Shown piece by piece: positions 561 through 16,507 of a stretch of DNA of 64,000 bases. How positions within the stretch are numbered: position 1 is the stretch's first letter; each line of letters opens with the position of its first letter. A program made the position numbers and the translations under genes. Under the pieces are notes generated by a model. It ran no database searches and had not been told where the DNA came from. It saw nothing but the letters and a program-made list of their open reading frames with translations. The stretch spans positions 1 through 64,000 of the forward strand of contig JAPWHL010000019.1 of the NCBI GenBank assembly GCA_027214255.1. The letters are read 5' to 3'. The stretch is from Roseovarius aestuarii. Its GTDB lineage: Bacteria; Pseudomonadota; Alphaproteobacteria; Rhodobacterales; Rhodobacteraceae.

Positions 561-1196
561 TATAAATTCGAGCCTTATACTAGATCCAGCACCAAAGGTC
601 GTGACACCAGATCCAAATCCCGAATGAAAAAAATCGATCCTCCAGGTTCCTGCCGCAGGTGAACGACCAATGTTCTTCCTGCCACTGTAACTTACGGGGT
701 CGGCACTTGCTGGAAACCCAAAATTCAGGCTCCCATAATAATAACCGACTTGTCCCCCCGGGGAGGTGATTTGTATTCGTATGATATCTCCCCTGGCGGC
801 GCCCGTAAATTCAGCGGAGAAATCAAAATAGATGTTGGTGACCGTCGCTTCAGGCGGGCTTGCCGGGACTATGAAATTTCGCGACGTCCCGCCCGAAGAC
901 ACATCCACGCTTATACCTGAAATATCAAAAGTTTGAACTGTCGTTTGGGCCTGCACAGTTGCCACCATCGCCATCAAAGCGACAAGCCCCGCCATGAGCC
1001 GTGACATGAATGTGCCGAAAACAGACTGCTTTTTCGGCGACGTCGGAACGGCCGTGGCAACCGCGTCAGTTTGATATGCAGGGGGCGCAGCCGCATCCAG
1101 CAGGCAGACATCCAAGAGCCGAGGATCGCATTTCGCTGCCATCACCGTTGTAAAATCCAGAATCCAGTGACGGACCCGTTTAATCAAAAATGCCAT
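1..1196 (-). CDS. secreted PKD/Ig-like repeat protein, N-terminal part (runs off left edge)
   Basis: About 398 codons of a larger gene are visible; the frame is open to the window edge. An in-frame TAA lies directly upstream of the ATG at 1196, so that is the furthest possible start. An ATG at 1007 (residue 64) begins a clear signal peptide (MSRLMAGLVALMAMVATVQA), so the protein is either made with a 63-residue N-terminal extension or starts at 1007. Neither start has a good ribosome binding site, and a small hairpin (1014-1038) lies just upstream of the 1007 start. Residues about 85-212 form a beta-rich region ending in a GTWRIDFF motif that recalls P-type domains; this is a weak resemblance. 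From residue 213 there are 99-residue Ig/PKD-like repeats with the signature NTAPTADAGADQTV and DGSGSSDPD. The likely role is a surface or secreted adhesive protein, by inference only. Confidence 0.75.
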   Translation of the reverse strand, partial: MAFLIKRVRHWILDFTTVMAAKCDPRLLDVCLLDAAAPPAYQTDAVATAVPTSPKKQSVFGTFMSRLMAGLVALMAMVATVQAQTTVQTFDISGISVDVSSGGTSRNFIVPASPPEATVTNIYFDFSAEFTGAARGDIIRIQITSPGGQVGYYYGSLNFGFPASADPVSYSGRKNIGRSPAAGTWRIDFFHSGFGSGVTTFGAGSSIRLEFINTAPTADAGADQTVASGASVALDGSGSSDPDTGQTLTYAWTQTGGTVVTLSDVNADKPGFTAPTRVAGSGPETLTFQLSFGDGIATDTDTVEITVNAPANTAPTAEAGPAQTVNSGAAVTLDGTGSTDPDTGQTLSYTWSQTGGTVVTLSDVNADKPGFTAPTRVAGSGPETLTFQLSFGDGIATD

Positions 1197-3508: not shown

Positions 3509-4275
3509 CCTGTAAAATCCCGCCGCATAAACAAACCTAACACGAATTAAAAACTTGCATAGCTATTCAACTGGAAACGTCGGGCACACAATTCGCCTTT
3601 GTTCCAGAACACTAGGGCGGTCTATGCGCAGAATTTGGGTAGCCGGACAGATTACGCCAGTCATAATGCAAGAAAAGTTAAATACACGTTTGAAAAAAAT
3701 TCCAGGAACAGTCCCTGACCTACTCACATCGAAGCCTAGCTTTTCCCAAGAGAAACGACAAGCTTTTGACACAGTTAAAATCAGATGAAGTTCGAACGCC
3801 ACCCGGGTCGTTCACCGGAACTCATACACACCGCTAAAGACTTTCCCGTTTGATGGCACCAGTTCCGGCCAGCTGACCTATCCATCATCAGGTCAATATC
3901 GGCGAGCCAAAAGCAGTCCGAACCAAGAGAAGGTACCGTTACACTCGCCCCGCAGTTCCTTCGCACCAAGCGCAGTCCGGTCTTCCTTGAATATCCCTTT
4001 TGAATACTCCTCGTTGCAATCCCTCGTTTTCACTGCCCACATTCTTGATGGGAACTGGGCTCACCTCAAGCCTCCGAAACAGCACAGGCGATGGGTCAAA
4101 ACCAGTACTGTCAACCGGCGGCCCTGTTCCCCAGCCCTAAGGGCGTGGGAACCAAACGCCCTACCCCGCGTTTGTCCTTCAGAAAAACCTAGCCGCGTGA
4201 TGTCACTGCCCCGCCAAACGGACGGGCCAAAAAATGACAGGCAGCGCGCGGCACTCAAATCTTATGGAGGGTACG
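3509..4275. other. intergenic region with no supported gene
   Basis: About 770 bases between two divergently transcribed units. Short open frames (for example 3555-3788 on plus and 3563-3802 on minus) lack a convincing ribosome binding site, composition or family resemblance. The part near 3541-3790 is clearly richer in A+T than the neighbouring genes. The only site I can support is the EcfG-type promoter at 4148-4172. Confidence 0.6.
4148..4172 (+). promoter_or_regulatory. EcfG-type general stress promoter
   Basis: GGAAC at 4148-4152 and CGTT at 4169-4172, separated by 16 bases, match the alphaproteobacterial EcfG consensus. It lies about 100 bases upstream of the 4276-6057 gene cluster and points into it. 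Confidence 0.8.
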
Positions 4276-4758
4276 ATGACCAATTCCACACCTAATGTTT
4301 CAAAAGCCAAAAAAGAAGCCGAGAACACAGCGCACGCCCTCAAGGATCGTGCGACAGCAGCCTATGACAGCACAAAAACCAAGGTCCAGGCCGAGGTGTC
4401 TGACCTGCGCGATCGCGCTGGAAACCGGGTGCATGACGCCAAAGATTCAGTTGCCGACAGGTTTGATTCCACGGCAGAGCGGCTGGACGATGCGGCCCAA
4501 AACATGACCGAAGGATCACCGCAGGCCGAAGCGGCCCATCGGGTCGCATATGGCGTGTCCAACGCGGCACAAACCCTGCGCGATGCAGAGCTATCAACAC
4601 TGGGTGATGACCTGACCCATGTAGCGCGTCGTCATCCCGTGGCCTTCGCCGGGGCTGCGGCCCTTGCAGGTTTTGCCGTGGGGCGCTTTCTGAAATCTTC
4701 AGGCACACGCAACGCGAACAGCAAGGCACGTCACGGCACGGGCCGGGGTTCGGTATGA
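4276..4758 (+). CDS. helical stress protein with C-terminal membrane segment (DUF883-like)
   Basis: A 160-residue protein. Residues 1-100 are charged and strongly helical with repeated Ala/Asp/Lys patterns, resembling LEA-like or apolipoprotein-like proteins. A Gly/Ala-rich hydrophobic segment near residues 125-145 (HPVAFAGAAALAGFAVGRF) looks like the terminal membrane anchor of ElaB/YqjD (DUF883) proteins, which dock ribosomes or other partners at the membrane. The ATG at 4276 follows GGAGGG. It is the first gene after an EcfG promoter and overlaps the next gene by 4 bases, so the three genes 4276-6057 form an operon. The family call is by pattern, not certain. Confidence 0.7.
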   Translation: MTNSTPNVSKAKKEAENTAHALKDRATAAYDSTKTKVQAEVSDLRDRAGNRVHDAKDSVADRFDSTAERLDDAAQNMTEGSPQAEAAHRVAYGVSNAAQTLRDAELSTLGDDLTHVARRHPVAFAGAAALAGFAVGRFLKSSGTRNANSKARHGTGRGSV

Positions 4759-5156
4759 TCGAACCGGATCAACCCTCGCGGAATGCCACGCTGATATCTT
4801 CGGTTCTGGACCATCTGCATCGGCTGATCCGCAAGGAAATGGCCCTGATCCGGTCCGAAGTTTCGCAAAAGCTGAACCGGGCGGCGGTTGCTGTGGGCAT
4901 GATAACGCTTGCGGTGATTGCCGTTCTGACCGGCCTGAATGTTCTGGCCGGTGCCTGTGTCGCCCTTCTGATCGACCTTGGCCTCAGTGCCGGATGGGCA
5001 GCCCTTAGCGTCGCAGGAACGTTCACCCTGATCGGCGCCATCCTGTGCTTAAGAGGCATACACATTCTGAAAACCACGTCATTGGCCCCAACTGAAACAG
5101 TTGCTGCGCTCAAGCGTGACGCCCAAGTCCTGAAGGAGAGTTTTCATGACCCATGA
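4755..5156 (+). CDS. phage holin family / DUF1469-like membrane protein
   Basis: A 133-residue protein with a charged helical N-terminus (residues 1-45) and two membrane segments at about 46-72 and 78-100, then a short cytoplasmic tail. This is the layout of the Actinobacteria-type holin-X/DUF1469 family, which despite the name is chromosomal and is often found next to DUF883 and DUF3618 genes, as here. It overlaps the genes on either side (4755-4758 and 5146-5156), which argues for translational coupling. Its role in the stress response is inferred only from the shared EcfG promoter. Confidence 0.75.
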   Translation: MIEPDQPSRNATLISSVLDHLHRLIRKEMALIRSEVSQKLNRAAVAVGMITLAVIAVLTGLNVLAGACVALLIDLGLSAGWAALSVAGTFTLIGAILCLRGIHILKTTSLAPTETVAALKRDAQVLKESFHDP

Positions 5157-6057
5157 CCAGTCTCAATCCAGTATCGAAGATGAAATAGCCGCCGAGCGTT
5201 CGGCCTTGGCCGACAGCCTCAGCCAGCTGTCGGCGCAATTGTCACCAGAAAATCTGGTGTCTGCCGTCGGTGACACTTTGAAAGATCAAAGCGATGCCTT
5301 GGCCCAAGCCGTCGTCAAAGGTGCGCGGGAAAACCCCGTCGCGCTGGGATTGATGGGGGCCGGTTTGGCATGGCTATTGATAGGCGGAAAATCGGCTGGT
5401 CATACTGACAGCAACGCAGCTTTTGATCGCAGCCCATCGCCCACATCGGGCGGGTTCAACCACCACAGCGATCCGTCCGAGTTCACAGATCGGGTGCGCG
5501 CCGCCGATCAGGTGAGCAACTCCAAGGATGCGGACCCAAGCCGCCTGAACAAGGCCGCACAGTTTGTCAGCCAAACTGCGGCTGACATGCGGGACTCGTT
5601 GTATGATGGCACTTCCGAACTGGGTGACATTGCCCGCGCGCGAGTGATCCAGGCCCGCCAAAAGGCAATCAACGCACAGGCCCGAATTGAGGCGGCGGGG
5701 GGTGACGCTGCCCGCATTGGCCGCCGCACCTTTGAGGACAATCCACTGATGATCGGTGCCGGCATTGTCGCAGCCGGGGCTGCACTCGCTTATGCCTTGC
5801 CTCGGACCGACGCAGAGAACAAGGCGTTCGGCCGCCACCGCGACGCGCTGGTCGACGAGGCCGAACGCGTTTTGCAAGAAGAACTGGAACGCATCAAAGC
5901 CTCGGGGCGGGCAGCAATGGACGAGGTGCGGACAATGGCCAGCGAGGCGGTAGACCAGGTGCCCACCGGTACCGATGCGGCAGACTTGGCTGAAAGCACG
6001 CTGCGCAAAGCCGGGCAGCGCGTCAAGGACCGCGCAGAAAACGCCCACTCTTCCTAG
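5146..6057 (+). CDS. DUF3618 domain-containing membrane-associated protein
   Basis: A 303-residue protein. The N-terminus (residues 8-45, IEDEIAAERSALADSLSQL) matches the DUF3618 pattern, followed by a hydrophobic segment at about 67-84. A second hydrophobic segment lies near residues 200-222, and the remainder is long charged helix, probably coiled coil. It is the third gene of the EcfG-driven cluster and overlaps the holin-like gene by 11 bases. The three proteins together look like a membrane-tethered helical set; their mechanism is not known. Confidence 0.75.
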   Translation: MTHDQSQSSIEDEIAAERSALADSLSQLSAQLSPENLVSAVGDTLKDQSDALAQAVVKGARENPVALGLMGAGLAWLLIGGKSAGHTDSNAAFDRSPSPTSGGFNHHSDPSEFTDRVRAADQVSNSKDADPSRLNKAAQFVSQTAADMRDSLYDGTSELGDIARARVIQARQKAINAQARIEAAGGDAARIGRRTFEDNPLMIGAGIVAAGAALAYALPRTDAENKAFGRHRDALVDEAERVLQEELERIKASGRAAMDEVRTMASEAVDQVPTGTDAADLAESTLRKAGQRVKDRAENAHSS

Positions 6058-6131
6058 GGCAGTTCAGGAAGCCCTGAAACAGCAAAAACGCTTGGCCCGC
6101 ACCCGCCGTGTTCACCCGTCAGGAGGCAAAC

Positions 6132-6560
6132 ATGAAGACCATCCCATGCGCCGCCTTCCTGACCGTGTTCACGGCGATCGCGGGCTCGCACTCGACGCGG
6201 GCCGAGGAGCCCGCACCACCACGCACGGTTATCGCCATTTTCGCGCCCCCATCTGTCACGCGAGACGGGTATGAAACCGTGCCGGGCGACGAAATTGAAG
6301 CCAACAGCCTGATTCATCAACGGGTGTATGACGCTGATGAAAACTGGATCGGCGTCGCCAGGCAATTGGTTCAAAACGCTTCAGGGACGGCAATCGGTAT
6401 CATCGTTGATTTCGGTGGGTTTCTGGGTATGGGCGAAAGCTCGGTCGCGATCAGGTTGGACAGCCTGACAGTTCTGCGCAATGTCCAAGAAAACAAAACT
6501 CGGATCTACCTCAGCGTCAGCGACAAGGTTCTCGATACGCTGCCGACATATCGCAGATAA
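6132..6560 (+). CDS. exported PRC-barrel domain protein
   Basis: A 142-residue protein with a signal peptide (residues 1-24, ending near STRAEEP). The body carries a PRC-barrel-like fold: the strand pattern around NSLIHQRVYDADENWIGVAR and then GIIVDFGGFLGMGESSVAI is typical of exported PRC-barrel proteins of Rhodobacteraceae. The ATG at 6132 is preceded by a strong AGGAGG; an in-frame start at 6108 is less likely. No EcfG site lies directly upstream, so it may be read through from the preceding cluster. It ends 37 bases before a strong terminator. Confidence 0.78.
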   Translation: MKTIPCAAFLTVFTAIAGSHSTRAEEPAPPRTVIAIFAPPSVTRDGYETVPGDEIEANSLIHQRVYDADENWIGVARQLVQNASGTAIGIIVDFGGFLGMGESSVAIRLDSLTVLRNVQENKTRIYLSVSDKVLDTLPTYRR

Positions 6561-6597
6561 AAACTTGAACAGCTCTACAATACACACGCATAGAACG

Positions 6598-6629
6598 AAA
6601 ACGCCCCGGACATCCATCCGGGGCGTTTT
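6598..6629. terminator. bidirectional intrinsic terminator
   Basis: A perfect 13-bp stem, arms 6598-6610 and 6617-6629 with a 6-base loop, flanked by A and T runs. It sits between the convergent PRC-barrel and CsbD genes and can serve both. Confidence 0.9.
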
Positions 6630-6664
6630 GTATGCGTCATTCCGTTCGGGCCATTAACCGAGGA

Positions 6665-6862
6665 TCAATGCTTGGACAGCCAATCGTCAACCTCGTTACG
6701 GGCCTCTTCTTTGCCCTTGCCATACCGCTCTTGAATGAGGCCTTCCAGACGCTCACGGTTGCCTGCGGCCTTGTCCAATTCATCATCGGTCAACTCGCCC
6801 CAATGTGCTTGGGCTTTGCCCTTCATCTGCTTCCATTTACCTTCTACTTGGTCCCAGTTCAT
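6665..6862 (-). CDS. CsbD family stress protein
   Basis: A 65-residue hydrophilic protein with the full CsbD pattern: MNWDQVEGKWKQMKGKAQ at the start, then WGELTDDELDKAAGNRERL and a helical end. CsbD proteins are induced by general stress regulators in many bacteria, but their biochemical role is unknown. The ATG at 6862 is preceded by AAGGAG; longer starts would lie in the promoter. A GGAAC-N17-CGTT site (6922-6897, minus) lies just upstream, so it is a likely EcfG target. Confidence 0.9.
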   Translation of the reverse strand: MNWDQVEGKWKQMKGKAQAHWGELTDDELDKAAGNRERLEGLIQERYGKGKEEARNEVDDWLSKH

Positions 6863-6896
6863 TTCAGTCTCCTTTCGAGTGACGTTATGCAAATTA

Positions 6897-6922
6897 AACG
6901 CCGGGCCTGTGGCGACTGTTCC
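6897..6922 (-). promoter_or_regulatory. EcfG-type promoter of the csbD gene
   Basis: On the minus strand GGAAC (6922-6918) and CGTT (6900-6897) are 17 bases apart, 35 bases upstream of the CsbD start codon. It lies back to back with the plus-strand promoter at 6931. Confidence 0.82.
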
Positions 6923-6930
6923 CTGCGCGT

Positions 6931-6956
6931 GGAACATTTTTTGCTCCTTCGGCGTT
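6931..6956 (+). promoter_or_regulatory. EcfG-type promoter of the AI-2E transporter gene
   Basis: GGAAC (6931-6935), a 17-base spacer and CGTT (6953-6956). The start codon follows 20 bases later, so the leader is very short. Only 8 bases separate it from the opposing csbD promoter. Confidence 0.82.
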
Positions 6957-6976
6957 AACCTGCCAAAGGAGCTTGC

Positions 6977-8020
6977 ATGAAAACTATTCCGTCAATCCGG
7001 CCAGCCGTGTGGTTCTTGGCCATCGCAACGGCGTTGGTCATTTTGAAAGTGGCTGCACCCTTGTTCGGGCCGGTTGTTTTGGCACTGGTAATCGGCGTCG
7101 TCCTGTCCCCCTTCGCGGGGCGAATAGATCGCTTGGGCGCGCCCCCTGCCGTCGGGGCGTTTCTAACATTAGCCGCATCACTCAGCGTCATTTTACTGAT
7201 GCTGTTCCTGATTGAGCCGGTCCTATCCGAGGCCGTGCGGCGCGCCCCCATAATCTGGGCCGAACTGCGAGATATGATAGCGTCCATTCAATCCGCTTTG
7301 CGCGGGCTGGACAATGTCACCGACCAAGTATCGCAAGCCCTGAACGACAGCCCGGACGACCCGGCGACGACCGTTGAAAAGGCGGCGCGCAAATCTGAAG
7401 ATGCCCAGCAAGGCGTGCAGATGCCGGGCATTGCCGATGCGCTTCTTTACGCGCCCGCCTATGCCGCGCGGTTGATGATTTTCATCGGCACACTTTACTT
7501 CTTTTTGCTGTCACGTCGCGAAGTCTATGACTGGATCAGCGCATCGGATCTGGCCGTCAGCACCGCTAATATGCTTGATGCCGAACACGAAGTGTCAAAA
7601 TACTTCCTGACCATCACGATGATCAATGCCGGGTTCGGCACCCTGATCGCCGCCCTGCTGATGACGCTAGGGATGCCTTATGCCATTCTTTGGGGTTTTG
7701 TTGCATCTTTGGCCAATTACATTCTCTACCTTGGGCCTGCAGTTTTTGCCGTGGCGCTTTTGCTGGGCGGGATCGTATCGTTTGATGGTCCGATCAGCTT
7801 TGTACCTGCAGCGATGTACGTTTCCTTGAACATGATCGAAGGCCAGTTCGTCACACCCAGCCTAGTAGGCCGCCAAATGAGGGTCAGCCCGCTCTTGGTG
7901 TTCTTGTCACTGGTGTTCTGGCTGTGGATGTGGGGGCCGGTTGGCGGCATCATCGCCATTCCGCTGCTGGTTTGGGCGCTGGCAGTCATGAAACGCAGAC
8001 CCAAGGCGTTGAACGGCTAG
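6977..8020 (+). CDS. AI-2E family transporter (PerM-like)
   Basis: A 347-residue inner-membrane protein of the AI-2 exporter/PerM family with about 7-8 hydrophobic segments: a pair at the N-terminus, a third near residues 65-85, a large polar region at about 90-155, then a C-terminal bundle. The GTLIAALLMTLGMPYAILWG segment and the LVGRQMRVSPLLVFLSLVFW region are typical of the family. The substrate is uncertain; only some members move AI-2 and others export ions or are uncharacterised. The ATG is preceded by AAAGGAG and an EcfG promoter. It converges on the phospholipase D-like gene. Confidence 0.85.
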   Translation: MKTIPSIRPAVWFLAIATALVILKVAAPLFGPVVLALVIGVVLSPFAGRIDRLGAPPAVGAFLTLAASLSVILLMLFLIEPVLSEAVRRAPIIWAELRDMIASIQSALRGLDNVTDQVSQALNDSPDDPATTVEKAARKSEDAQQGVQMPGIADALLYAPAYAARLMIFIGTLYFFLLSRREVYDWISASDLAVSTANMLDAEHEVSKYFLTITMINAGFGTLIAALLMTLGMPYAILWGFVASLANYILYLGPAVFAVALLLGGIVSFDGPISFVPAAMYVSLNMIEGQFVTPSLVGRQMRVSPLLVFLSLVFWLWMWGPVGGIIAIPLLVWALAVMKRRPKALNG

Positions 8021-8038
8021 GGCACGCATCCTAGCGTT

Positions 8039-9589
8039 TCACACCAGTTCTTCGGGCACACCGGGCAGATTGCGACCGAACCGGCGCGCTGCTGCAACAG
8101 GGTAAGAAAGAACAAACCCTTGACGATCCTCGGGCGCGCGGTCTGCGTTGTCCTTGGCCAACTGCCGCCACGTGGCTACGGCCGTCTCCGGATCATAGGC
8201 TGCGGCCGGAGCATCCTCGGGCAACCAATGCTGAAAACACCGGCGGCGCATTGTGTTCACCGTATCCGCCCCACGCAAGGTCACGCCTGCCTCGGTATCC
8301 CAACGCAGGCTGCGACCGTTAAGGTTAGCCGACGAAACAAGCGCCGCCGCGTCATCGAAAATGGACACCTTGGCATGCAGATAGACCAACGGGGCCTCTT
8401 GCAAGGCGCTTCGGCCATGACTGTACGATTGTTTGGGCTGCGCGGGGGACATGACAAAGCACCGCTCTTTAAATGCCTTGCGCACCAATCCTACACATTT
8501 AGCCTGAAGGTATTCACCATAACGCGCGTCGCTGGACGTTGATCCCTCAAAGGCAACGTCATCCGGCGCTCCGGGCAGGACCAGCAGCAGATTTAACCGC
8601 GCATTGGCGCGCGCTGCCCGCACCAACGCACGGGCCAATGAGACGCTGCGAAAATATTGGGTTTCCAGGTAAATCAACTGGCTAGATTTCTCAAACCACT
8701 CAAGATGCGCGCGCTCGATCCCAGTATCGACCGGCTTTGGAGACATGCGGAATGTCTCGCGCGGATGCCGGGCAGATAACGTGCGCACCAGATTTGGCAA
8801 ACGCGACGCGGTACGATCACCATTCGCGACTGGCGTGATTTCGTTCAGGTGATCACGCGCGTCGGCTGCGGCGGGGCCATCAATCAAGACCTGCGTGTCA
8901 TGCCATGTCTGCGCGCCGGGCCTGTCATGTTCGGGCGTATCATAGCGCCGTTCGTTCAGATCCAGACCACCAATGTACAGCCGCTGACCATCAAACACCG
9001 CCAGTTTCTGATGATGGGTTACAGGCACAATTGCCGGAATGGGCCACGTTTTCGCCCTCAGTTGAGGATGCTTACCACGCAGATAGGGCGTCAGGCCGGG
9101 CATGTGTTTCAGATCATGGCACGCGTCCTCAAACGGCAGTTCATTCAGGCGTGCAGCCTCGGCGCCGATTTTGCGCAAGATTTTGGATCGCAACATAACA
9201 CGCGGCACCAACCCCATACGCGCCGGATGCAGCAAAGGCAGCAACGTCATCAAATCGGGGTTCCCGGATGCCTCGCCCGCAGCCTTTAATGCAGTCACCG
9301 AGCGCCATGTCATGCGATGTAAATCCGGTGCAACAACAGGATCAAAATCCGTCAACAACAAGCGAAATTTCACCCCACGCGCCAACGTATGCGCAATCAG
9401 ATCGGCCCAGGTTTCGCCAATTGCTCGCGCTTCGTGCGAACATAACCGCGTGCATGGATCAAACACCCGAAAACCTGCCGAAATCTCGGACTCGGCCTCC
9501 AGAAACAACCGCTCGAACACTGGATACGCCTCTGACGCCGTCAGAAACAGCTGTACCGCACTTGAAGCGTTATCATCGGATCGGCCCAT
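8039..9589 (-). CDS. phospholipase D-like protein (cardiolipin synthase/PLD superfamily)
   Basis: A 516-residue protein with two HxKxxxxD catalytic motifs: the first at His193, Lys195 and Asp200, the second near residue 405 (YLHAKVSIFD, followed by SSANLNGRS). The pair forms one active site that breaks or exchanges phosphodiester bonds, usually of phospholipids. No signal peptide or membrane segment is seen, so it is cytoplasmic or peripheral. It begins directly at the end of the sensor kinase gene, placing it last in the nepR-ecfG-kinase operon. That links it to stress-dependent membrane lipid changes by inference. Confidence 0.82.
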   Translation of the reverse strand: MGRSDDNASSAVQLFLTASEAYPVFERLFLEAESEISAGFRVFDPCTRLCSHEARAIGETWADLIAHTLARGVKFRLLLTDFDPVVAPDLHRMTWRSVTALKAAGEASGNPDLMTLLPLLHPARMGLVPRVMLRSKILRKIGAEAARLNELPFEDACHDLKHMPGLTPYLRGKHPQLRAKTWPIPAIVPVTHHQKLAVFDGQRLYIGGLDLNERRYDTPEHDRPGAQTWHDTQVLIDGPAAADARDHLNEITPVANGDRTASRLPNLVRTLSARHPRETFRMSPKPVDTGIERAHLEWFEKSSQLIYLETQYFRSVSLARALVRAARANARLNLLLVLPGAPDDVAFEGSTSSDARYGEYLQAKCVGLVRKAFKERCFVMSPAQPKQSYSHGRSALQEAPLVYLHAKVSIFDDAAALVSSANLNGRSLRWDTEAGVTLRGADTVNTMRRRCFQHWLPEDAPAAAYDPETAVATWRQLAKDNADRAPEDRQGFVLSYPVAAARRFGRNLPGVPEELV

Positions 9590-11329
9590 TCAATGATCCG
9601 CCGGATCATGCGAGAATTCCTCGACGTTGAAAGTAACCGCGACAGTATAGGTCGCATCGGTGATTTCGGTCTGTACTTCACCGCCCAATTGCGAGGCAAA
9701 CGCGCGGATCAGTTGACTGCCCAGCCCTGTTCCAGCCAGTTCTTCTGTGGCATCCGGCGAGATGGAATTTTCACAAACCAAACGCGCAATCCCCGGCTCA
9801 ATCAAAGTCAGGGATGCCCGCATTCTCGCCCGCCCCCGCGATGAGGCAGCGGCGTATTTAACAGCATTCGTCGCCAGCTCCGACGCCAGCAAAGCCAGCG
9901 GGACCGCCTGATCGGGCAGCAGGATCACGTTCTCAAAATCGCTGTCATAGTCCATATTGTCACCAGCTTCTGCGCCCGCCACCACCAGATGATTGAACAA
10001 TTCAGTCAACAAAGCGCCCGCGTTGGTCTGGCTGAGGTTTTCAGCCTGATAGAGATTGCGATGCACCGTCGCCAAGCCCAGAATACGCTCCTGCAAACGT
10101 TTCAGCGTTGCCACGGTTTCCGGGCGCTTTGCCTTACGGATTTTCATATTCATGATCGACGAAATCAGTTGCAGGTTGTTCTTGACCCGATGATGAACCT
10201 CTTTCAGCAGCACGTTCTTTTCGCGCAATGCATCTTCCATCTGGGCCTCGTCATCCAGCAGGCTGAACGCCATTTCGGAAAACGCATCTTCCAATTCTTC
10301 CAACTCACTGGAAAGGGTACGGTTGCGCGCACTGGTATCAAAACTGCGGGTTTTCGCGAAAATCTGCATCTTGCGGCACAGTCCCGCCACATGGCGTACG
10401 ACCAGCTGATCAACCGCCAGATAAGAGACTCCCAAACTGGCCAGAAACATCAAAAGCGGCACAATAAGAGGCGTCAGAGGGACTCCGAGAATTGTGAACG
10501 TATCACGTTCGATCGGCCATACCGCCAAAGCATAAGCCAGGCCGGGGATGAGGGGCACGACGGCAAAGTTCCGTTTTGCTCCGGATCTATCATGCCCGAC
10601 AAACGTGACCGATGGATTGCCCGCCAGTTGCGCCAATGGAATGTTGCCCGGCAAGGACATCAGATTGTCCTTCAGCCCGGATTGCGACGATAGGATCGCA
10701 CCATCCGCGTTAAAAGTGGTCAGGCTGATCGGTCGTTTTTCGGCGTTTTCATCAACCTGGTTCGCAACCAAATGAACCGGCATCGAAATCGAGATATAGC
10801 CCGAGAAAGCACCTTCATCAAAAACCGGATGGAGGATGTTGATCACGTTTTCTCGGCTGACTGTCGGCCTGTCGATAGCCGCAATCGACGGTTGTGGATG
10901 CATCATTCCATCACCGATCCGCGTGGATTGACTTAGATCAACAGGGGTGGCGGCGGACGAGCATGTCACCATACCATCCTCAGGCACGAACCCGATGAAC
11001 GAATACCTGCCGTTTTCCTCCAGGTATTTCCCCAAGTAGCGCCGACAGCTTTCTGGGTCATCCTGAATGAGCTGCAGAATCGAGCTAAGGGCCTCGGCCG
11101 CGCCGAAAGCGCGCTCGATCACCTGACGTTCGCCAAAAGCGGCACGGTTTGTTAAGGCCAGCAACGTTAATTCAGAATGGCTGCGCACCTCTTCCGAGAG
11201 ATAGCGCGTTTGCATGATACCCATGACGCCAATGGGCAGCAGCGCCAACGCCAAAACTGCTGCCACGCGAAACCTTAGCCCACGCGAGATAGGCCGCCTT
11301 GGCGCAGAGTCGGTCCTGATCTCTGGCAT
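9590..11329 (-). CDS. HisKA_2/HWE-type sensor histidine kinase of the general stress response
   Basis: A 579-residue membrane sensor kinase. Transmembrane helices lie at about 22-42 and 286-306 and enclose a sensor domain of about 240 residues on the periplasmic side. A HAMP-like linker follows, then the HisKA_2 box around residues 377-390 (EVHHRVKNNLQL, phospho-acceptor His379 or 380) and an ATPase domain (ASELATNAVKYA). Kinases of this class phosphorylate PhyR in alphaproteobacteria. It starts at the base where ecfG ends, so it is coupled to ecfG and is the probable PhyK-like input. The signal sensed is not known. Confidence 0.85.
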   Translation of the reverse strand: MPEIRTDSAPRRPISRGLRFRVAAVLALALLPIGVMGIMQTRYLSEEVRSHSELTLLALTNRAAFGERQVIERAFGAAEALSSILQLIQDDPESCRRYLGKYLEENGRYSFIGFVPEDGMVTCSSAATPVDLSQSTRIGDGMMHPQPSIAAIDRPTVSRENVINILHPVFDEGAFSGYISISMPVHLVANQVDENAEKRPISLTTFNADGAILSSQSGLKDNLMSLPGNIPLAQLAGNPSVTFVGHDRSGAKRNFAVVPLIPGLAYALAVWPIERDTFTILGVPLTPLIVPLLMFLASLGVSYLAVDQLVVRHVAGLCRKMQIFAKTRSFDTSARNRTLSSELEELEDAFSEMAFSLLDDEAQMEDALREKNVLLKEVHHRVKNNLQLISSIMNMKIRKAKRPETVATLKRLQERILGLATVHRNLYQAENLSQTNAGALLTELFNHLVVAGAEAGDNMDYDSDFENVILLPDQAVPLALLASELATNAVKYAAASSRGRARMRASLTLIEPGIARLVCENSISPDATEELAGTGLGSQLIRAFASQLGGEVQTEITDATYTVAVTFNVEEFSHDPADH

Positions 11330-11886
11330 CAGAACGCAGTCGCTCTGTTCTTTCCGATCACTGCCATCGTCGCCTGATCTGTCATTTCAATGGCCTCATC
11401 GTCATCCAGGTGCATTAACTCGGCCAGCCGTTGCCGACCTCGGTTTGCACGGCTTTTGATGGTGCCCACGGCAACCCCACACATATCGGCCGCTTCTTCG
11501 TATGAGAACCCCGAAGCGCCAACCAAGATCAACGTTTCGCGCTGTTCATCCGGCAACTGATCAAACGCCCTGCGAAAATCGCGCATCTGCAAACGTCCGT
11601 CATGTGCCGGCTTTTCCGACATGCCTTCGGTAAAGACACCGTCCACATCCGCCACTTCGCGTTTGACCTTGCGACGACTGGAGTAATAGGTATTGCGCAG
11701 AATGGTGAATAACCACGCACGCATGTTTGTGCCAACCTCAAATTTCTCGATATTGGTCCAAGCCTTGACGACCGTATCTTGCACCATATCATCAGCTGTC
11801 GCGCCATTGCGCGTCAGGCTAAGGGCAAAAGCCCGCAGTGCCGGCAGATGCTCTACCAGCTCGTCGCGTGGATCCGAAGTGTTCAT
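11329..11886 (-). CDS. ecfG: EcfG-type RNA polymerase sigma factor
   Basis: A 185-residue ECF sigma factor. Region 2 spans about residues 12-75 (TADDMVQDTVVKAW, then MRAWLFTILRN) and region 4 about 108-160 (LPDEQRETLILVGASGFSYE and the helix GVAVGTIKSRANRGR). It directs RNA polymerase to GGAAC-N16/17-CGTT promoters of the general stress response. The ATG overlaps the nepR stop by 4 bases, so anti-sigma and sigma are made together. Eight close copies of its target motif lie within 12 kb of this gene, including one driving its own operon. The family assignment rests on context as well as sequence. Confidence 0.92.
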   Translation of the reverse strand: MNTSDPRDELVEHLPALRAFALSLTRNGATADDMVQDTVVKAWTNIEKFEVGTNMRAWLFTILRNTYYSSRRKVKREVADVDGVFTEGMSEKPAHDGRLQMRDFRRAFDQLPDEQRETLILVGASGFSYEEAADMCGVAVGTIKSRANRGRQRLAELMHLDDDEAIEMTDQATMAVIGKNRATAF

Positions 11887-12047
11887 TTTGGGTCATCCGT
11901 CCCTGAACTGTCATCCTGTTGTTTCAGTTGCGCCAGCAGATCCTTGAACCGGTCGGGCAGCTCTTCCTCGACTTTCTCCCGGAACACTCTGCGCAGGTTG
12001 TCGTCGATCTGCTGCAGCGTCCGCGCGTTCGGTTGTTCTTTTCCCAT
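11883..12047 (-). CDS. nepR: NepR anti-sigma factor
   Basis: A 54-residue protein with the NepR core LQQIDDNLRRVFREKVEEEL (residues about 9-28), the two-helix element that holds EcfG in unstressed cells and is captured by phosphorylated PhyR. The ATG at 12047 is preceded by GGCGGA; longer in-frame starts would overlap the promoter. It overlaps ecfG by 4 bases and is divergent from phyR, the standard alphaproteobacterial layout. Confidence 0.92.
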   Translation of the reverse strand: MGKEQPNARTLQQIDDNLRRVFREKVEEELPDRFKDLLAQLKQQDDSSGTDDPK

Positions 12048-12090
12048 AGGTCCGCCTGATGCTAAAAATCGCGTAAGTAACACTTTCTTT

Positions 12091-12115
12091 GGAACCAAAC
12101 GCCCCGCTGCGTGTT
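12091..12115 (+). promoter_or_regulatory. EcfG-type promoter of phyR
   Basis: GGAAC (12091-12095), 16-base spacer, TGTT (12112-12115), one base off the CGTT consensus. The phyR start codon lies 37 bases downstream. Confidence 0.75.
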
Positions 12116-12122
12116 TGGTTCC
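12098..12122 (-). promoter_or_regulatory. EcfG-type promoter of nepR-ecfG
   Basis: On the minus strand GGAAC (12122-12118), 16-base spacer, CGTT (12101-12098); a full consensus match. It gives autoregulation of the sigma factor operon. It overlaps the phyR promoter almost completely. Confidence 0.85.
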
Positions 12123-12152
12123 AAAGAAAGTTATATTTTCGGGAAAAAAAGA

Positions 12153-12968
12153 ATGACAGCACAGATCACCGACCAGGACTTGACCACTCAGATCGGCGCA
12201 AATCTACCATTTCTCCGGCGCTATGCGCGGGCGCTGACCGGAAATCAGACAAGCGGCGATACTTATGCCGCCACAACACTTGAGGCAATCCTGACCGACC
12301 GCAGCACATTGGAGACATCCATGGCTGTCAAACCGGCCTTGTTCAAAGTGCTGCACACGATCTGGCAAAGCAGTAAAAGCACCGCGGTTTCTGGGGCTGA
12401 AGACGGCCTTGAAGGGGCCGCGCAAAAACACATGGCCCGTCTGACAGAAAACACACGCGAGGCATTGTTGCTGCACACGATTGAAGAGTTCACCTTTGGT
12501 GAAGTGGCTGCGATCATGGGCATTGAACAAACCGAAGCCGAGCATCTGGTCGCTGTCGCCCACCGCGAAATGGCCGACAGCATCGCCGGAAGCGTCCTGA
12601 TCATCGAGGATGAGCCAGTCATTGCCATGGATCTGGAAAGCCTTGTCTGCGATCTGGGCCATCGCGTGACAGCCATCGCGCGCACCCGCACCGAAGCCAT
12701 GGAAAAAGGATCCGCCGACAAACCGGATTTGATTTTGGCCGACATCCGGTTGGCGGACAATTCATCAGGAATTGATGCGGTGAATGATCTGTTGGGCAAA
12801 TTCGGAACCCTGCCTGTAATCTTTATCACTGCCTACCCCGAGCGCCTGTTGACCGGCGACCGCCCGGAACCTGCGTTCTTGATTTCAAAACCTTACAACG
12901 AAGATCAGGTGCGCTCGGCCGTCAGTCAGGCGATGTTCTTTTCGACGACTGCCACACTCAAGGCATAG
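12153..12968 (+). CDS. phyR: PhyR response regulator (sigma-like domain plus receiver)
   Basis: A 271-residue protein. Residues 1-140 resemble ECF sigma regions 2 and 4 but serve as a decoy that binds NepR; residues 146-265 are a receiver domain. The acidic pair is Glu152/Asp153, the phosphoacceptor Asp197 (LILADIRL), the conserved Lys246, and the FITAYPERLLTG stretch is the FATGUY-type motif of PhyR receivers. Phosphorylation exposes the decoy and frees EcfG. The ATG at 12153 was chosen because earlier in-frame starts fall inside the promoter palindrome. It is divergent from nepR and ends before a strong terminator. Confidence 0.93.
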   Translation: MTAQITDQDLTTQIGANLPFLRRYARALTGNQTSGDTYAATTLEAILTDRSTLETSMAVKPALFKVLHTIWQSSKSTAVSGAEDGLEGAAQKHMARLTENTREALLLHTIEEFTFGEVAAIMGIEQTEAEHLVAVAHREMADSIAGSVLIIEDEPVIAMDLESLVCDLGHRVTAIARTRTEAMEKGSADKPDLILADIRLADNSSGIDAVNDLLGKFGTLPVIFITAYPERLLTGDRPEPAFLISKPYNEDQVRSAVSQAMFFSTTATLKA

Positions 12969-13003
12969 GGCGTCTCACGCTGTTTACCTAAAGGCGATAA
13001 CGC

Positions 13004-13032
13004 AAAAGCCCCGCCAAATTGGCGGGGCTTTT
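13004..13032. terminator. bidirectional intrinsic terminator
   Basis: A perfect 12-bp stem (13004-13015 with 13021-13032) and a 5-base loop, with A and T runs built into the arms. It lies between the convergent phyR and dps genes. Confidence 0.92.
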
Positions 13033-13054
13033 ATTGGCTCTACTGGTTGAACTA

Positions 13055-13552
13055 TTAATCCTTGGAGATTGCACGCAACATCCACGCGGCCTTTTCGTGG
13101 AATGTTGATCGGGCTGTCGCCATGTCGGCGGTCACTGGATCACTAGAGTCCTCGGCCAATTCGATTAAGGCATGCAGGCGATGGGCCACGCGTTCGTGAT
13201 CCTTGGCAAGGCTCTCGCACATGTCGCCGGCGGTGCATCCGTCCTCCAGATCGGTGATCACCGAATCTTTCAACAGGGTTTTCAAACGGTGCGGCGCCAT
13301 CTGGCCCAGCGCGCGGATGCGCTCGGCCAGTTCATCGGCAGCGCCAAACATTTCCTCGTATTGGCCTTCGGTCAGTTTGTGGATCGAAAAGAACAGCGGC
13401 CCTTCCACGTTCCAATGGCACGCATGCGTTTTAAAAATAAGACGATACGTGTCCCCCAGAACATCGGCAAGCCCGGCGGAAATACCTTTTGCATTCTTGA
13501 TACCGGTCTTAACCTTGGCATCTTCGGCTACGATTTTCAGCGCGTCTGTCAT
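13055..13552 (-). CDS. dps: Dps family DNA-protecting ferritin-like protein
   Basis: A 165-residue protein with the Dps signature THACHWNVEGPLFFSIHKLT followed by EEMFGAADELAERI, which carries the inter-subunit ferroxidase His, Asp and Glu ligands. Dps dodecamers oxidise and store iron using peroxide and protect DNA under stress. The ATG at 13552 is preceded by AAGGAG. A full EcfG promoter lies 33 bases upstream (13610-13585), so it belongs to the stress regulon. It shares a terminator with phyR. Confidence 0.93.
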   Translation of the reverse strand: MTDALKIVAEDAKVKTGIKNAKGISAGLADVLGDTYRLIFKTHACHWNVEGPLFFSIHKLTEGQYEEMFGAADELAERIRALGQMAPHRLKTLLKDSVITDLEDGCTAGDMCESLAKDHERVAHRLHALIELAEDSSDPVTADMATARSTFHEKAAWMLRAISKD

Positions 13553-13584
13553 GACTTTCTCCTTTGTCTGATTTTCACCTGCCC

Positions 13585-13610
13585 AACGCAAAACCCTCAC
13601 AGGATGTTCC
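13585..13610 (-). promoter_or_regulatory. EcfG-type promoter of dps
   Basis: On the minus strand GGAAC (13610-13606), 17-base spacer, CGTT (13588-13585). It is correctly placed upstream of the Dps start. Confidence 0.85.
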
Positions 13611-13665
13611 ATATCCTTTGGCCAAACTGACCAATGTTTGTTCTCGGAACCCTGAAACAAAACAG

Positions 13666-13692
13666 GGGCGGCCAATTGGCCACCCCCGGTTC
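13666..13692 (-). terminator. probable terminator of the DUF1328 gene
   Basis: On the minus strand a GGGGTGGCC / GGCCGCCCC stem with one mismatch is followed by a T-rich tract (TGTTTTGTTT). It lies about 20 bases after the stop codon at 13712. Confidence 0.6.
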
Positions 13693-13711
13693 AAACATCT
13701 CTGCGGCCTCT

Positions 13712-13882
13712 TCACGGAGAGCGGCCACGAACCAGTTGCATCAACAACGCCCCGACAAACAGTACGACGAAGATGAAAAACAGGATTTGCGCGATCGATG
13801 CCGTGGCAGACGCGATACCACCAAAGCCCAAAACCCCGGCGATAATGGCGACAACAAAGAAAACGATGGCCCAATATAACAT
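13712..13882 (-). CDS. DUF1328 small membrane protein (YtjA family)
   Basis: A 56-residue protein, almost entirely two membrane helices (residues 1-23 and 27-50) with the family pattern [20 protein letters not shown] then [15 protein letters not shown] and a short basic end. The function of the family is unknown; members are often stress induced. The ATG at 13882 follows AAAGGA. An EcfG consensus site at 13967-13942 precedes it, adding it to the local regulon. Confidence 0.88.
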
Positions 13883-13941
13883 ACGATGTCCTTTCAATTT
13901 CCAGCGTTCCCCACCCAATCAGTGGTCATTTCTGAAAATAG

Positions 13942-13967
13942 AACGCAGCGCGCGGCAGAGTGGTTCC
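13942..13967 (-). promoter_or_regulatory. EcfG-type promoter of the DUF1328 gene
   Basis: On the minus strand GGAAC (13967-13963), 17-base spacer, CGTT (13945-13942), 60 bases before the start codon. Confidence 0.8.
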
Positions 13968-14015
13968 ACGCCTTCACAATGTCGCTTCATAGACCCGGCC
14001 AACATCAGATCTACG

Positions 14016-14408
14016 TCACATCTCGCCGGGCGCCAGCCGACGGCGCTCCCTAAGGAGGCCCATGATCGCCTCATTCGTAAACGGAGCGGGTACGCATATC
14101 TCGGCCAGCGTTACATCCTCATTTAGTGGCGCACGGCCACCGATCCGCACCATAAGCGCGCCATGATTTTGCACCAACGACAAGAACGTTTCGTCCTGCG
14201 TCTGGGCCACCTTGCCATTCAGAAAAACCATGTCCACCCGGCCACCGTCTGAAAGGATGCCGCACGCAATGGATAAGGTGGTTGCGGCCACAACGTTAGC
14301 ATCCTTGTCGGCTGTACGCAGGATGTCGCACAGATCCTCGGATACGAACAAATCAGGTTCGACGACAATGTAACGCAAGTGCATTCGGGGTGTTTCCACA
14401 AGAGTCAT
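14016..14408 (-). CDS. degenerate receiver-domain protein
   Basis: A 130-residue single-domain protein with the layout of a response-regulator receiver: a first strand and acidic pocket (RYIVVEPDLFVSEDLCDIL, residues 12-30), a helix, then the strand that should carry the phosphoacceptor. That strand reads VDMVFLNGKV, with Asn where Asp is expected, and the conserved Lys near the end is not evident. It is therefore probably a pseudo-receiver that cannot be phosphorylated in the usual way. It starts at ATG 14408 (an ATG at 14384 is an alternative) and is divergent from the Crp/Fnr gene. Its partner is unknown. Confidence 0.65.
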   Translation of the reverse strand: MTLVETPRMHLRYIVVEPDLFVSEDLCDILRTADKDANVVAATTLSIACGILSDGGRVDMVFLNGKVAQTQDETFLSLVQNHGALMVRIGGRAPLNEDVTLAEICVPAPFTNEAIMGLLRERRRLAPGEM

Positions 14409-14481
14409 AACACCGGACTATGGAACCAATTTCAGTTTCAGGCATTAAACTGTGACATAGCTGCATGGGAGACCTGACTGT

Positions 14482-15216
14482 ATGGCGACTAAATGCGCCC
14501 AATGCCCTTTGCGCCGCAGCGATTTGTTTGCAGCACTCAGCGACGACGACATCCGGTTCATGGATCGTTTCAAAGTTGGTGAGCTGATCATTGACCCCGG
14601 CACTCCCCTTTTGATGGAAGGGTCCAATAGCCCGCAATTGTTCACCGCCCTTCGCGGTATGGGCCTGCGCTTTAAGACGTTGGAAAACGGGCGGCGACAG
14701 GTTCTGAACTTTGTCTTTCCGGGGGATTTCATTGGCCTTCAGGCCGCAGTTATGGGGGAAATGCAACATTCTGTTCAGGCCAGTTCGGCCATGACTCTAT
14801 GCGTTTTCAACCGGTCCGAGTTCTGGAATTTCTTCAAATCGCACCCCGAACGCGCCTTTGACCTGACATGGCTGGCTGCTGTCTCGGAACATTTCTTGGG
14901 TGAAACTCTGACCTCGGTCGCGCAGCGCAACGCGACTGAAAGGGTGGCGTGGGCCTTGTGCAAGATCATGCAGCGCGGGCACGCTTTGGGGCTGAGTAAA
15001 GGACACACGATGCCCCTGCCATACCGCCAGCAGGATCTGGCGGATGCATTGGGCCTGTCATTGGTTCACACCAACAAAACGCTTGGAAAACTGCGTGATC
15101 GCCAATTGGCAAACTGGGGGGATGGGATGTTGACCGTGAGTGACATTGCCAAGTTGATGCGCATTGCCGGTATGGACGCCGATACAGATTGCCTGCCAAC
15201 ACAGCCCCTGATGTAG
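14482..15216 (+). CDS. Crp/Fnr family transcriptional regulator
   Basis: A 244-residue regulator. Residues about 25-145 form the cyclic-nucleotide-binding-type beta barrel (PGTPLLMEGSNSPQLFTALR, then VLNFVFPGDFIGLQAAV), and residues 160-225 carry the winged helix (RQQDLADALGLSLVHTNKTL). The N-terminus has CAQCPLR, a pair of cysteines seen in FnrL-like branches, but the central cysteine needed for a 4Fe-4S cluster is not evident, so oxygen sensing is doubtful. A GGGAGA ribosome binding site precedes the ATG. It sits within the stress island, divergent from the pseudo-receiver gene. Confidence 0.87.
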   Translation: MATKCAQCPLRRSDLFAALSDDDIRFMDRFKVGELIIDPGTPLLMEGSNSPQLFTALRGMGLRFKTLENGRRQVLNFVFPGDFIGLQAAVMGEMQHSVQASSAMTLCVFNRSEFWNFFKSHPERAFDLTWLAAVSEHFLGETLTSVAQRNATERVAWALCKIMQRGHALGLSKGHTMPLPYRQQDLADALGLSLVHTNKTLGKLRDRQLANWGDGMLTVSDIAKLMRIAGMDADTDCLPTQPLM

Positions 15217-15277
15217 GCACGCGATTGTCGCTTACACGTTCGTTTTCCTGAAACGCTTTGCGCCGCAAGAAAACAGC

Positions 15278-16195
15278 CTAGACGTCCAGATAGGTATCTG
15301 CAGCAGATGCACCACGTTCCCCCAAAGGGCGCGGATCACCGACTGTGCTGTCGGGTTTTGTGTGACGCTCCAACTCGGCGTTGATAGCCCCCCCGATCAA
15401 CAACAAAAAGCCACTGATAAAAAGCCACATAAGCAGGGCGATCACGGCCCCGATAGAACCATAAACTTCGTTGTATGTGCCGAAATTGGCCAGATAGATT
15501 GAAAAACCGACCGACGCGATGGCCCACAACCCGACGGCAAGAACAGCACCCGGCGAGATCCAAGCCACACGTGCTGCCCGCCTGTTCGGACCATAGCGAT
15601 AGACCAGACCGGCCCCTGCCAATAAAATTCCCACGGCAACCAGCCACCTGATCGTTTCGACCGCAAACTGGGCAAAGACCCCCAATGGAACAAAGGCCAT
15701 GACGACCGGGGTGATGATGATCGCCCCAATCGCCGTCAATGCAACCAGCACCAGCGCAAGCGTGAGCCCAAACGCCGTCAGATAATGCCAAATCCCGCGA
15801 CGCTTTCGTTCGTCATAAACGGCGTTCATCCCTTGCATCAACGCAGCAACCCCCGCACGCGCAGACCAGATGGCCAACAATATTGACAGGATCGAGGCCC
15901 AGCCCAACTTGCCTTCATCCGCGTTGGCAAGGGCCTTAATCTGGCCGCTGATCAATCGATACACATCCTCTGGAAACAGAAAATCATATCGTTCTACCAG
16001 TGGCAGAATGGACTGAGGGTCACCAATCACCCCCCATAACGCAATGATAGCGGCAATGGCCGGGAACAGTGCCAGCATCCCAAAAAACGCTATGCCTGCG
16101 GCGATCATAACCAAACGTTTTTCGTCAACCGCGTGGTAGACGCGTTTGGCCACTGACCACCAAACAGCCGGGCCGTGATTTGGCAATGGAACCAT
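15278..16195 (-). CDS. YihY/BrkB family inner-membrane protein
   Basis: About 305 residues with six membrane segments and the family region DEKRLVMIAAGIAFFGMLAL near residues 25-45, followed by ARAGVAALMQGMNAVYDERK at about 113. The family was once called RNase BN by mistake; its true role is unknown. I placed the start at ATG 16195; a TTG at 16198 is directly upstream. It follows the PLDc_N gene with only 3 bases between, so both are likely transcribed from the EcfG promoter at 16507. Confidence 0.85.
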   Translation of the reverse strand: MVPLPNHGPAVWWSVAKRVYHAVDEKRLVMIAAGIAFFGMLALFPAIAAIIALWGVIGDPQSILPLVERYDFLFPEDVYRLISGQIKALANADEGKLGWASILSILLAIWSARAGVAALMQGMNAVYDERKRRGIWHYLTAFGLTLALVLVALTAIGAIIITPVVMAFVPLGVFAQFAVETIRWLVAVGILLAGAGLVYRYGPNRRAARVAWISPGAVLAVGLWAIASVGFSIYLANFGTYNEVYGSIGAVIALLMWLFISGFLLLIGGAINAELERHTKPDSTVGDPRPLGERGASAADTYLDV

Positions 16196-16198
16196 CAA

Positions 16199-16390
16199 TC
16201 AACCTCGCCCGCTGGCCGCGCGCGGGCCTGCGATAAGCCAGAAGATAAAACCGAGAATGGGTAAGAACACGACAAGAAGAATCCACAGCACCTTTTTTCC
16301 AGTGCCGGAATTGGACCCGACGATTGACACAATGGCCCAAACAGCGAGGACCAGAACGATAAAACCCCCAAAACCGGTGTATTGTGTCAT
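16199..16390 (-). CDS. PLDc_N domain small membrane protein
   Basis: A 63-residue protein with two membrane helices (residues 8-25 and 33-54) and the WILLVVFLPILGFIFWLIAG segment that defines the phospholipase D N-terminal (PLDc_N) family. Such stand-alone proteins have no catalytic domain. The ATG at 16390 follows AAGGA. It is the first gene after a minus-strand EcfG promoter and is followed immediately by the YihY-type gene. Confidence 0.85.
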   Translation of the reverse strand: MTQYTGFGGFIVLVLAVWAIVSIVGSNSGTGKKVLWILLVVFLPILGFIFWLIAGPRAASGRG

Positions 16391-16482
16391 TCAGAATGTC
16401 CTTCTTTTGGGTCGTTTCAATGGTCGTTCTGTAAACATGGCGCGATCTAATCACACAGTTTGCACAATGGCATTAACTGTCT

Positions 16483-16507
16483 AACGTCGGTGGTAGTGAT
16501 TGGTTCC
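16483..16507 (-). promoter_or_regulatory. EcfG-type promoter of the PLDc_N-yihY operon
   Basis: On the minus strand GGAAC (16507-16503), 16-base spacer, CGTT (16486-16483), 92 bases before the start codon at 16390. Confidence 0.78.

Follow-up and report, generated by a model that had tools for sequence, protein, structure and literature searches.

A general stress response locus of Roseovarius aestuarii probably centred on a bidirectional EcfG promoter within a cluster of likely target genes

Is a cluster of EcfG-type promoter sites around the genes for their own regulator peculiar to one genome, and how are the two opposed transcription units at its centre promoted? Both questions are raised by the first 64,000 nucleotides (forward strand) of contig JAPWHL010000019.1 of Roseovarius aestuarii (family Rhodobacteraceae; assembly GCA_027214255.1), hereafter the window, in which a sequence-only reading had recognised the general stress response (GSR) genes nepR, ecfG and phyR and eight EcfG-type sites. 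The analysis led to the reading, held with a probability of about 0.78, that this is a GSR control locus inside a 12-kb cluster of likely direct targets, centred on a bidirectional EcfG promoter at positions 12091-12122 from which phyR is transcribed in one direction and nepR in the other.

The central features, from right to left, are the following (the promoters being predicted).
12153-12968 (+): phyR, anti-anti-sigma response regulator (NF006623, 346.6 bits, cut-off 240)
12091-12122 (both directions): overlapping two-way EcfG promoter, comprising the phyR promoter at 12091-12115 (+) and the nepR promoter at 12098-12122 (-)
11883-12047 (-): nepR, anti-sigma factor of 54 amino acids (PF18557, 52.5 bits, cut-off 25.7)
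11329-11886 (-): ecfG, general stress sigma factor (NF009198, 340 bits, cut-off 270)
9590-11329 (-): HisKA_2/HWE sensor kinase of PhyK type (PF07568 and PF07536, both over cut-off)
8039-9589 (-): phospholipase D-like protein (domain match), adjoining the kinase gene

The nepR, ecfG, HisKA_2 kinase and phospholipase D-like genes are consecutive on the minus strand, each overlapping or abutting the next, the last of them being the likely final gene of the nepR operon, and phyR lies opposite. In PhyR a sigma-like domain is fused to a receiver (PF22029, PF22233 and PF00072 were all matched), and NepR was the single PF18557 match in its own genome. The profile NF009198 ('RNA polymerase sigma factor') was taken by us to indicate ECF15/EcfG, given the nepR-phyR context, while the kinase scored 199.6 against the NF051872 PhyK profile, not reaching its cut-off of 750. 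With NepR, PhyR, EcfG and an HWE/HisKA2 kinase all present, the locus is of the alphaproteobacterial GSR type.

The promoters of phyR and nepR share one stretch of 32 bp, GGAACCAAACG-N10-TGTTTGGTTCC, and each fits the EcfG consensus, with TGTT as the -10 box on the phyR side. The sites at 12091 (+) and 12122 (-) have 18 of 25 bp in common and jointly form a near-palindrome, in which two opposed EcfG promoters are superimposed with each -35 box 1-3 bp (usually 2) from the opposite -10 box. Both sites had been listed correctly in the sequence-only reading but were treated as two, so that the common element was missed.

Conservation of this geometry was assessed in the Rhodobacteraceae, where NepR was present in 188 of 394 sampled genomes (187 of 393 genera). 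From the listed matches 128 relatives were chosen (68 mostly with the best E-values, then 60 with lower-ranking ones; some near contig ends were excluded), and up to 20 kb around nepR was taken from each, giving, with the window, 129 loci and 2.53 Mb. A divergent phyR/ecfG arrangement was found in 125 of these (L125, L150, L368 and L383 were excluded by the thresholds), representing 124 genera, as the window and locus L084 belong to one genus. Exact facing GGAAC...GTTCC boxes were present at the phyR/nepR junction in 109 of the 125 genomes, at an offset of 31 in 72 and of 32 in 37, compared with 0 facing pairs at offset 31 and 2 at offset 32 in the remaining sequence of the same loci (2.41 Mb). 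When -10 boxes were searched for without constraint on distance, CGTT or TGTT was found at a spacer of 16 or 17 on the phyR side in 85 and on the nepR side in 83 of the 109 junctions, and at a spacer of 15 or 18 in none; other distances were few, the commonest being 21-22 (10 and 13 counts), where the -10-like sequence overlaps the opposite -35. With GGTT also allowed, following the consensus GAAC-N16,17-C/GGTT given in the literature (PMC4814048), both -10 boxes were present in 80 of 109. The overlap of the two sites and its geometry are thus kept across genera.

Several observations weigh against this reading of the promoter and its surrounding cluster. Even with GGTT allowed, 27 of the 109 junctions have no recognisable -10 box on one side and 2 have none on either; no facing pair exists at the junction in 10 of the 125 loci; and 15 of the 125 are without any further strict site nearby. 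In addition, the half-site GGAAC-N2-AAC is fairly rigid (gap of 2 in 164 of 187 half-sites counted) and the palindrome could therefore be an operator for another protein: it would bind another dimeric regulator, such as the product of the Crp/Fnr-type gene found near nepR in 58 of 128 relatives, and merely contain EcfG-like boxes, with one real promoter. This explanation is improbable. Each of the four is an EcfG box with EcfG spacing, no CGTT or TGTT occurs at 15 or 18, the literature on the class, in the portions used here, describes EcfG dependence for both units (PMC8103513, PMC4814048), and the Crp/Fnr gene accompanies 58 of 128 loci as against 109 of 125 for the element. Three loci with an offset of 30 or 33 also bear on the matter. 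In L109, TGTT and GGTT are both at spacer 16 and the half-site is shifted; in L138, CGTT is at spacer 16 on the nepR side only, again with a shifted half-site; and in L353, AGTT is at spacer 17 on both sides. A -10 box thus remains at 16 despite a shifted half-site in 2 of the 3, which hints, from sequence comparison, that promoter spacing may be conserved more than the half-site.

Symmetry outside the boxes was also considered. It is striking in the window, where complementarity around the centre extends to 22 of the first 25 base pairs; extended flank symmetry was rejected as a family feature, being weak over the 109 loci (0.355 vs 0.330, with 23 of 2000 permutations reaching 0.355). A shared symmetrical -10 of the sigma70 bidirectional type is absent here: the -10 boxes are separate, and it is the interleaved -35/-10 block that is shared.

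The spacing was largely specific to this junction. In the first 69 loci, strict pairs no more than 120 bp apart comprised 43 facing pairs at 31/32, all at the phyR/nepR junction, 4 facing pairs at 26/27, and 48 back-to-back pairs at -1 to -103, a few of which share a site. As a separate observation, the back-to-back divergent pairs favour one spacing, with 13 of 48 at -22 to -25 (the window block and L084-L151). These figures bear on the possibility that the two promoters are ordinary divergent EcfG promoters whose overlap has been kept by descent in a short intergenic region, with no regulatory effect. Common ancestry could account for one geometry in one family, and the weak extra dyad symmetry of the flanks (the 0.355 above) and the E. 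coli bidirectional promoters, which may fire too seldom for competition (PMC12825309, in the parts drawn on here), agree with it; on the other side, the geometry is kept in 109 of 125 genomes, some loci have a fused form at offset 26, and the other divergent EcfG pairs of these loci vary from -1 to -103. Descent without regulatory effect is considered unlikely, although distinctly more plausible than an operator for another regulator.

The fused form was found in 3 of the 125 loci; in it GGAACC serves as one -35 box and, reversed as GGTT/TGTT, as the opposite -10. It recurred, with a length of 27 bp, in 6 of another 22 loci from the order, and two of these six genomes are also among the three. 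The loci with this form (L213, L215, L217, L221, L225 and L231) are all three sampled species in each of two genera. The background contains more pairs at offset 26 (13 in 2.41 Mb), which makes the fused form less certain.

When GTDB r220 genomes were scanned for the DNA pattern only, at least 118 stretches were returned, of which 80 were listed. Among those 80, the element lay between divergent phyR and ecfG in 72 and between phyR and nepR in 2, adjoined nepR-ecfG at a contig end in 1, and lay elsewhere in 5 (four cyanobacterial, one in a Desulfovibrionaceae metagenome-assembled genome). Carriers among the stretches listed include Rubellimicrobium thermophilum (L297), Cereibacter ovatus, C. 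changlensis, Thioclava pacifica, Roseovarius tolerans, Celeribacter halophilus and Sulfitobacter species. Other families of the class were represented by 28 NepR loci, in which adjacency to phyR was not checked. In 3 of them (two genera) the facing boxes occurred at offset 31 with a single mismatch; one had a pair at 26 with one mismatch and three more had such a pair with two, and back-to-back -35 boxes 3-9 bp apart were found in about seven, mostly with a mismatch. A class-wide scan for a reverse promoter plus one -35 box matched 44 of 385 genomes and was set aside, the matches being mostly chance-like compared with the control columns; three genomes of one genus (G434, G560 and G656) stood out, with the match adjoining nepR in G434 and G560 (G656 was not checked).

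The second part of the reading concerns the cluster around this promoter. The remaining genes and predicted promoters of the block are as follows.
4148-4172 (+): EcfG-type promoter for the 4276-6057 cluster, exact GGAAC-N16-CGTT
4276-4758 (+): 160-amino-acid protein, first in the cluster, with weak Apolipoprotein/phasin matches under cut-off
4755-5156 (+): holin 3_6 (PF07332) membrane protein, domain match
5146-6057 (+): DUF3618 protein (27.4 bits, cut-off 24.9)
6108-6560 (+): PRC-barrel protein, domain match, without a strict site of its own
6665-6862 (-): csbD (PF05532, 70.4 bits)
6897-6922 (-): EcfG-type promoter for csbD, pattern match
6931-6956 (+): EcfG-type promoter for the AI-2E-family gene, pattern match, back to back with the csbD promoter
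6977-8020 (+): AI-2E family transporter (PF01594)
13055-13552 (-): dps (PF00210)
13585-13610 (-): EcfG-type promoter for dps, pattern match
13712-13882 (-): DUF1328 small protein, domain match
13942-13967 (-): EcfG-type promoter for the DUF1328 gene, pattern match
14482-15216 (+): Crp/Fnr-type regulator, domain match, a frequent neighbour without a site
15278-16198 (-): yihY (BrkB family), domain match
16199-16390 (-): PLDc_N small protein, domain match
16483-16507 (-): EcfG-type promoter for PLDc_N-yihY, pattern match

Eight EcfG-type sites had been claimed for this block, and all were recovered: seven are exact GGAAC-N16/17-CGTT matches (4148+, 6922-, 6931+, 12122-, 13610-, 13967- and 16507-) and the eighth, 12091+, has TGTT as its -10 box. 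They lie upstream of phyR, nepR, dps, csbD, the DUF1328 gene, PLDc_N-yihY, the AI-2E-family gene and the 4276-6057 cluster. The distance between the -10 box and the chosen start codon is about 20-104 nt. The gene names proposed from sequence likewise held for NepR, EcfG, PhyR, Dps, CsbD, DUF1328, PLDc_N, YihY/BrkB, AI-2E, holin 3_6 and DUF3618, but not for the 'DUF883-like' protein at 4276-4758, for which the profile search gave no DUF883 match and which probably consists of amphipathic helices. Outside the block, the contig starts within a frame at the left end of the window (1-1196, minus strand) whose long repeats, roughly 290 nt as judged by eye, are nearly identical; it probably belongs to a large repeat protein truncated in the assembly.

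The exact pattern matched 8 times in the window against 1.41 expected, and none of 100 dinucleotide shuffles reached 8; besides the seven in the block, the eighth (21029-21053, minus strand) falls within a coding frame. The complete genome holds 63 exact matches in 4,411,245 bases, 7 of them in the 12,360-bp block, where 0.157 would be expected from the 56 other sites (Poisson P(>=7) = 4e-10). The proposal of a compact EcfG-type regulon around its own regulator was thereby upheld.

Elsewhere in this genome, 46 of the 55 sites beyond the window fall inside a frame of at least 80 amino acids. Twenty sites were inspected by eye (19 of these 55, plus 21029) and about eight were judged promoter-like, so that perhaps about half of the genome's promoter-like strict sites are in the block. 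Among the genes behind those elsewhere are ones for an MgtC protein, an Fe/Mn superoxide dismutase and two PRC-barrel proteins, the second of them below the Pfam cut-off; by reading, others encode a barrel resembling outer-membrane proteins (no Pfam match), a small membrane protein and a secreted protein rich in alanine. Promoter-like sites of this kind were noted at L048, L055, L061, L059, L079 and L039, and the small membrane protein by eye resembles a family with a site in another genus. Another of the eight, an exact site distant from the block (L082; G000:C99, 489-514, minus strand), lies upstream of a frame for a 22-residue hydrophobic peptide (MRSIIYLVG...).

Could the clustering be an artefact of composition? 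In its favour, the bare pattern shows no genome-wide enrichment, with 63 matches against 188 for the reversed-pattern control. Genome-wide counts of the bare pattern were, however, discarded as uninformative, the reversed control lying above or below the real count from one to another of 40 relatives; spacer-shifted patterns are the better control. In the 125 loci, 322 sites had a spacer of 16 and 235 a spacer of 17, whereas the control spacers averaged 19.6; equal counts at the shifted patterns were looked for and not seen, and site density declines away from the phyR/nepR junction. An artefact is accordingly given next to no credence. Equal density elsewhere in the genome, which would speak against a local regulon, was also looked for: in 40 genomes, 216 sites, counting the phyR/nepR pair, were found in 0.794 Mb no more than 10 kb from nepR and 2,492 in about 163.6 Mb elsewhere, that is 272 vs 15 per Mb, or about 18-fold (genome sizes rounded).

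The suggestion that such a block is unusual was not supported when the 125 loci were compared. Sites outside the phyR-ecfG interval numbered 3.2 per 20-kb locus on average (median 3), with at least 3 in 68 of the 125 loci. The window scored 7 with the in-frame site at 21029 and 6 without it; scores of at least 6 were reached by 19 of the 125 loci and of at least 7 by 11. Clustering of EcfG sites is therefore real, yet common at Rhodobacteraceae stress loci rather than peculiar to this genome.

Homologues of the block genes near nepR in the 128 relatives were then counted together with any site ahead of them. A site preceded the homologue of nepR in 93 of 126 cases, of the DUF1328 gene in 60 of 87, csbD in 37 of 44, PLDc_N in 32 of 45, dps in 30 of 41, the AI-2E-family gene in 17 of 36 and the 4276 gene in 11 of 17, while control spacers gave 0.4-1.6 for DUF1328, csbD, PLDc_N and dps. 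Association was weaker for the phospholipase D-like gene (12/58), yihY (7/32) and the PRC-barrel gene (3/27), and few or no sites preceded the Crp/Fnr-type gene (2/58), the kinase gene (2/121, its homologue being present in 121 of the 128 relatives' loci), the holin-like gene (1/18) and the DUF3618 gene (0/20). No site is expected directly ahead of the phospholipase D-like, kinase, yihY, holin-like and DUF3618 genes of the window, which would be later members of operons. Most of the named targets thus keep their sites in other genera, and each is predicted to be expressed from its site.

Genes beyond the edges of the block behaved differently: near nepR in the 128 relatives, the LysR gene was found in 3, the MFS gene in 0 and three others, which we take to be uracil-DNA-glycosylase-like, dehydrogenase and RodA-like genes, in 0 each. 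Within the block, the frame at 14016-14408 was near nepR in just 3 of 128. The block is hence a largely recurring set of genes whose content is not fixed. A further family, F016 (329 amino acids, amidoligase-like by reading), had EcfG sites in 8 of 15 loci near nepR (L084-L151); no member was found in the window's first 22 kb.

What would a promoter of this form do? Under stress, phosphorylated PhyR would sequester NepR and release EcfG, and free EcfG would bind the palindrome in either orientation, firing phyR rightward or nepR-ecfG-kinase-phospholipase D leftward from the same 32 bp, with starts probably about 32 bp apart. Polymerase bound in one orientation would cover the opposite promoter; mutual exclusion is expected because one polymerase footprint should cover both. 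Each firing would then strengthen the response, by giving PhyR, or reset and re-arm it, by giving NepR-EcfG-kinase, and polymerase would be divided between the two units, one direction at a time. Because both promoters would compete for one site, the output ratio would be set by the relative strength of the half-promoters and not by the amount of active EcfG; two separate promoters that differ in strength would instead approach equal saturation. We tentatively propose such a ratio clamp, in which a polymerase-sized promoter fixes PhyR : NepR-EcfG-kinase at every EcfG level, with outputs alternating in single cells, and which is kept in Rhodobacteraceae within the partner switch, as the palindrome or as the fused form (offset 26); this stronger proposal is rather more doubtful than the bidirectional promoter itself.

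Two published observations speak against a mechanism of this kind. In R. sphaeroides under membrane stress, ecfG mRNA rose and phyR mRNA did not (PMC5830050, in the part used here), which tells against simple coupling, although the element was not looked for in that species (Cereibacter ovatus and C. changlensis carry it); and E. coli bidirectional promoters at basal activity showed no competition (PMC12825309). According to the same account, a bidirectional promoter that is active enough does compete, and interference lowers noise; by analogy, EcfG promoters under stress may lie within the competing range of activity.

The type of locus, EcfG promoters on both units and bidirectional promoters as such are already known. 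The partner switch and the EcfG-dependence of the promoters on both units were established for the family by others, and the alphaproteobacterial GSR locus described in the sections consulted has the same proteins, divergent order and EcfG consensus promoters on both units (PMC8103513, PMC4814048); what differs here is that both lie on a single 32-bp near-palindrome, a comparable facing pair, with one mismatch, being seen in 3 of the 28 loci from other families. The bidirectional promoters of Warman et al. 2026 (PMC12825309) resemble the present one in pseudo-symmetrical DNA, divergent RNAs and polymerases that exclude each other (the last two being expected here), but they have a common sigma70 -10, their starts are usually 18 bp apart and their basal activity is low, while here whole ECF promoters with both -35 boxes interleaved would start about 32 bp apart; no ECF case is treated in the abstract, introduction and discussion of that paper. 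For Rubellimicrobium thermophilum, of the same family, promoters of the GSR loci were predicted from a similar consensus (PMC12148442), and the palindrome was found there by the present scan; the section on the loci does not mention promoter overlap. The R. sphaeroides phyR locus has the gene order seen here, phyR being followed by Crp-Fnr; a start has been mapped there ahead of nepR, facing away from phyR on the opposite strand, and PhyR has a limited role, in membrane stress; in the part of that paper used here no overlapping promoter is described (PMC5830050). In the titles, abstract openings and passages returned by a PMC text search there was no description of overlapping phyR/nepR promoters, subscription journals lying mostly outside it, and absence from print is not claimed. 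As far as that search reached, two things are apparently new: the wide distribution through the family of a palindromic, overlapping EcfG promoter, and the quantitative description of the regulon cluster.

For the family, csbD, dps, DUF1328 and PLDc_N, which recur at the locus and keep their sites, suggest a core stress set of the Rhodobacteraceae, and the DNA signature locates stress loci without a protein search. The promoter is a candidate conserved case of bidirectional transcription with an ECF sigma factor, testable in the carrier genera Rubellimicrobium, Thioclava, Sulfitobacter, Roseovarius and Celeribacter. How a partner switch behaves depends on the balance of an anti-sigma factor and its antagonist, and a conserved promoter from which both are expressed competitively would, if real, fix that balance within 32 bp of DNA.

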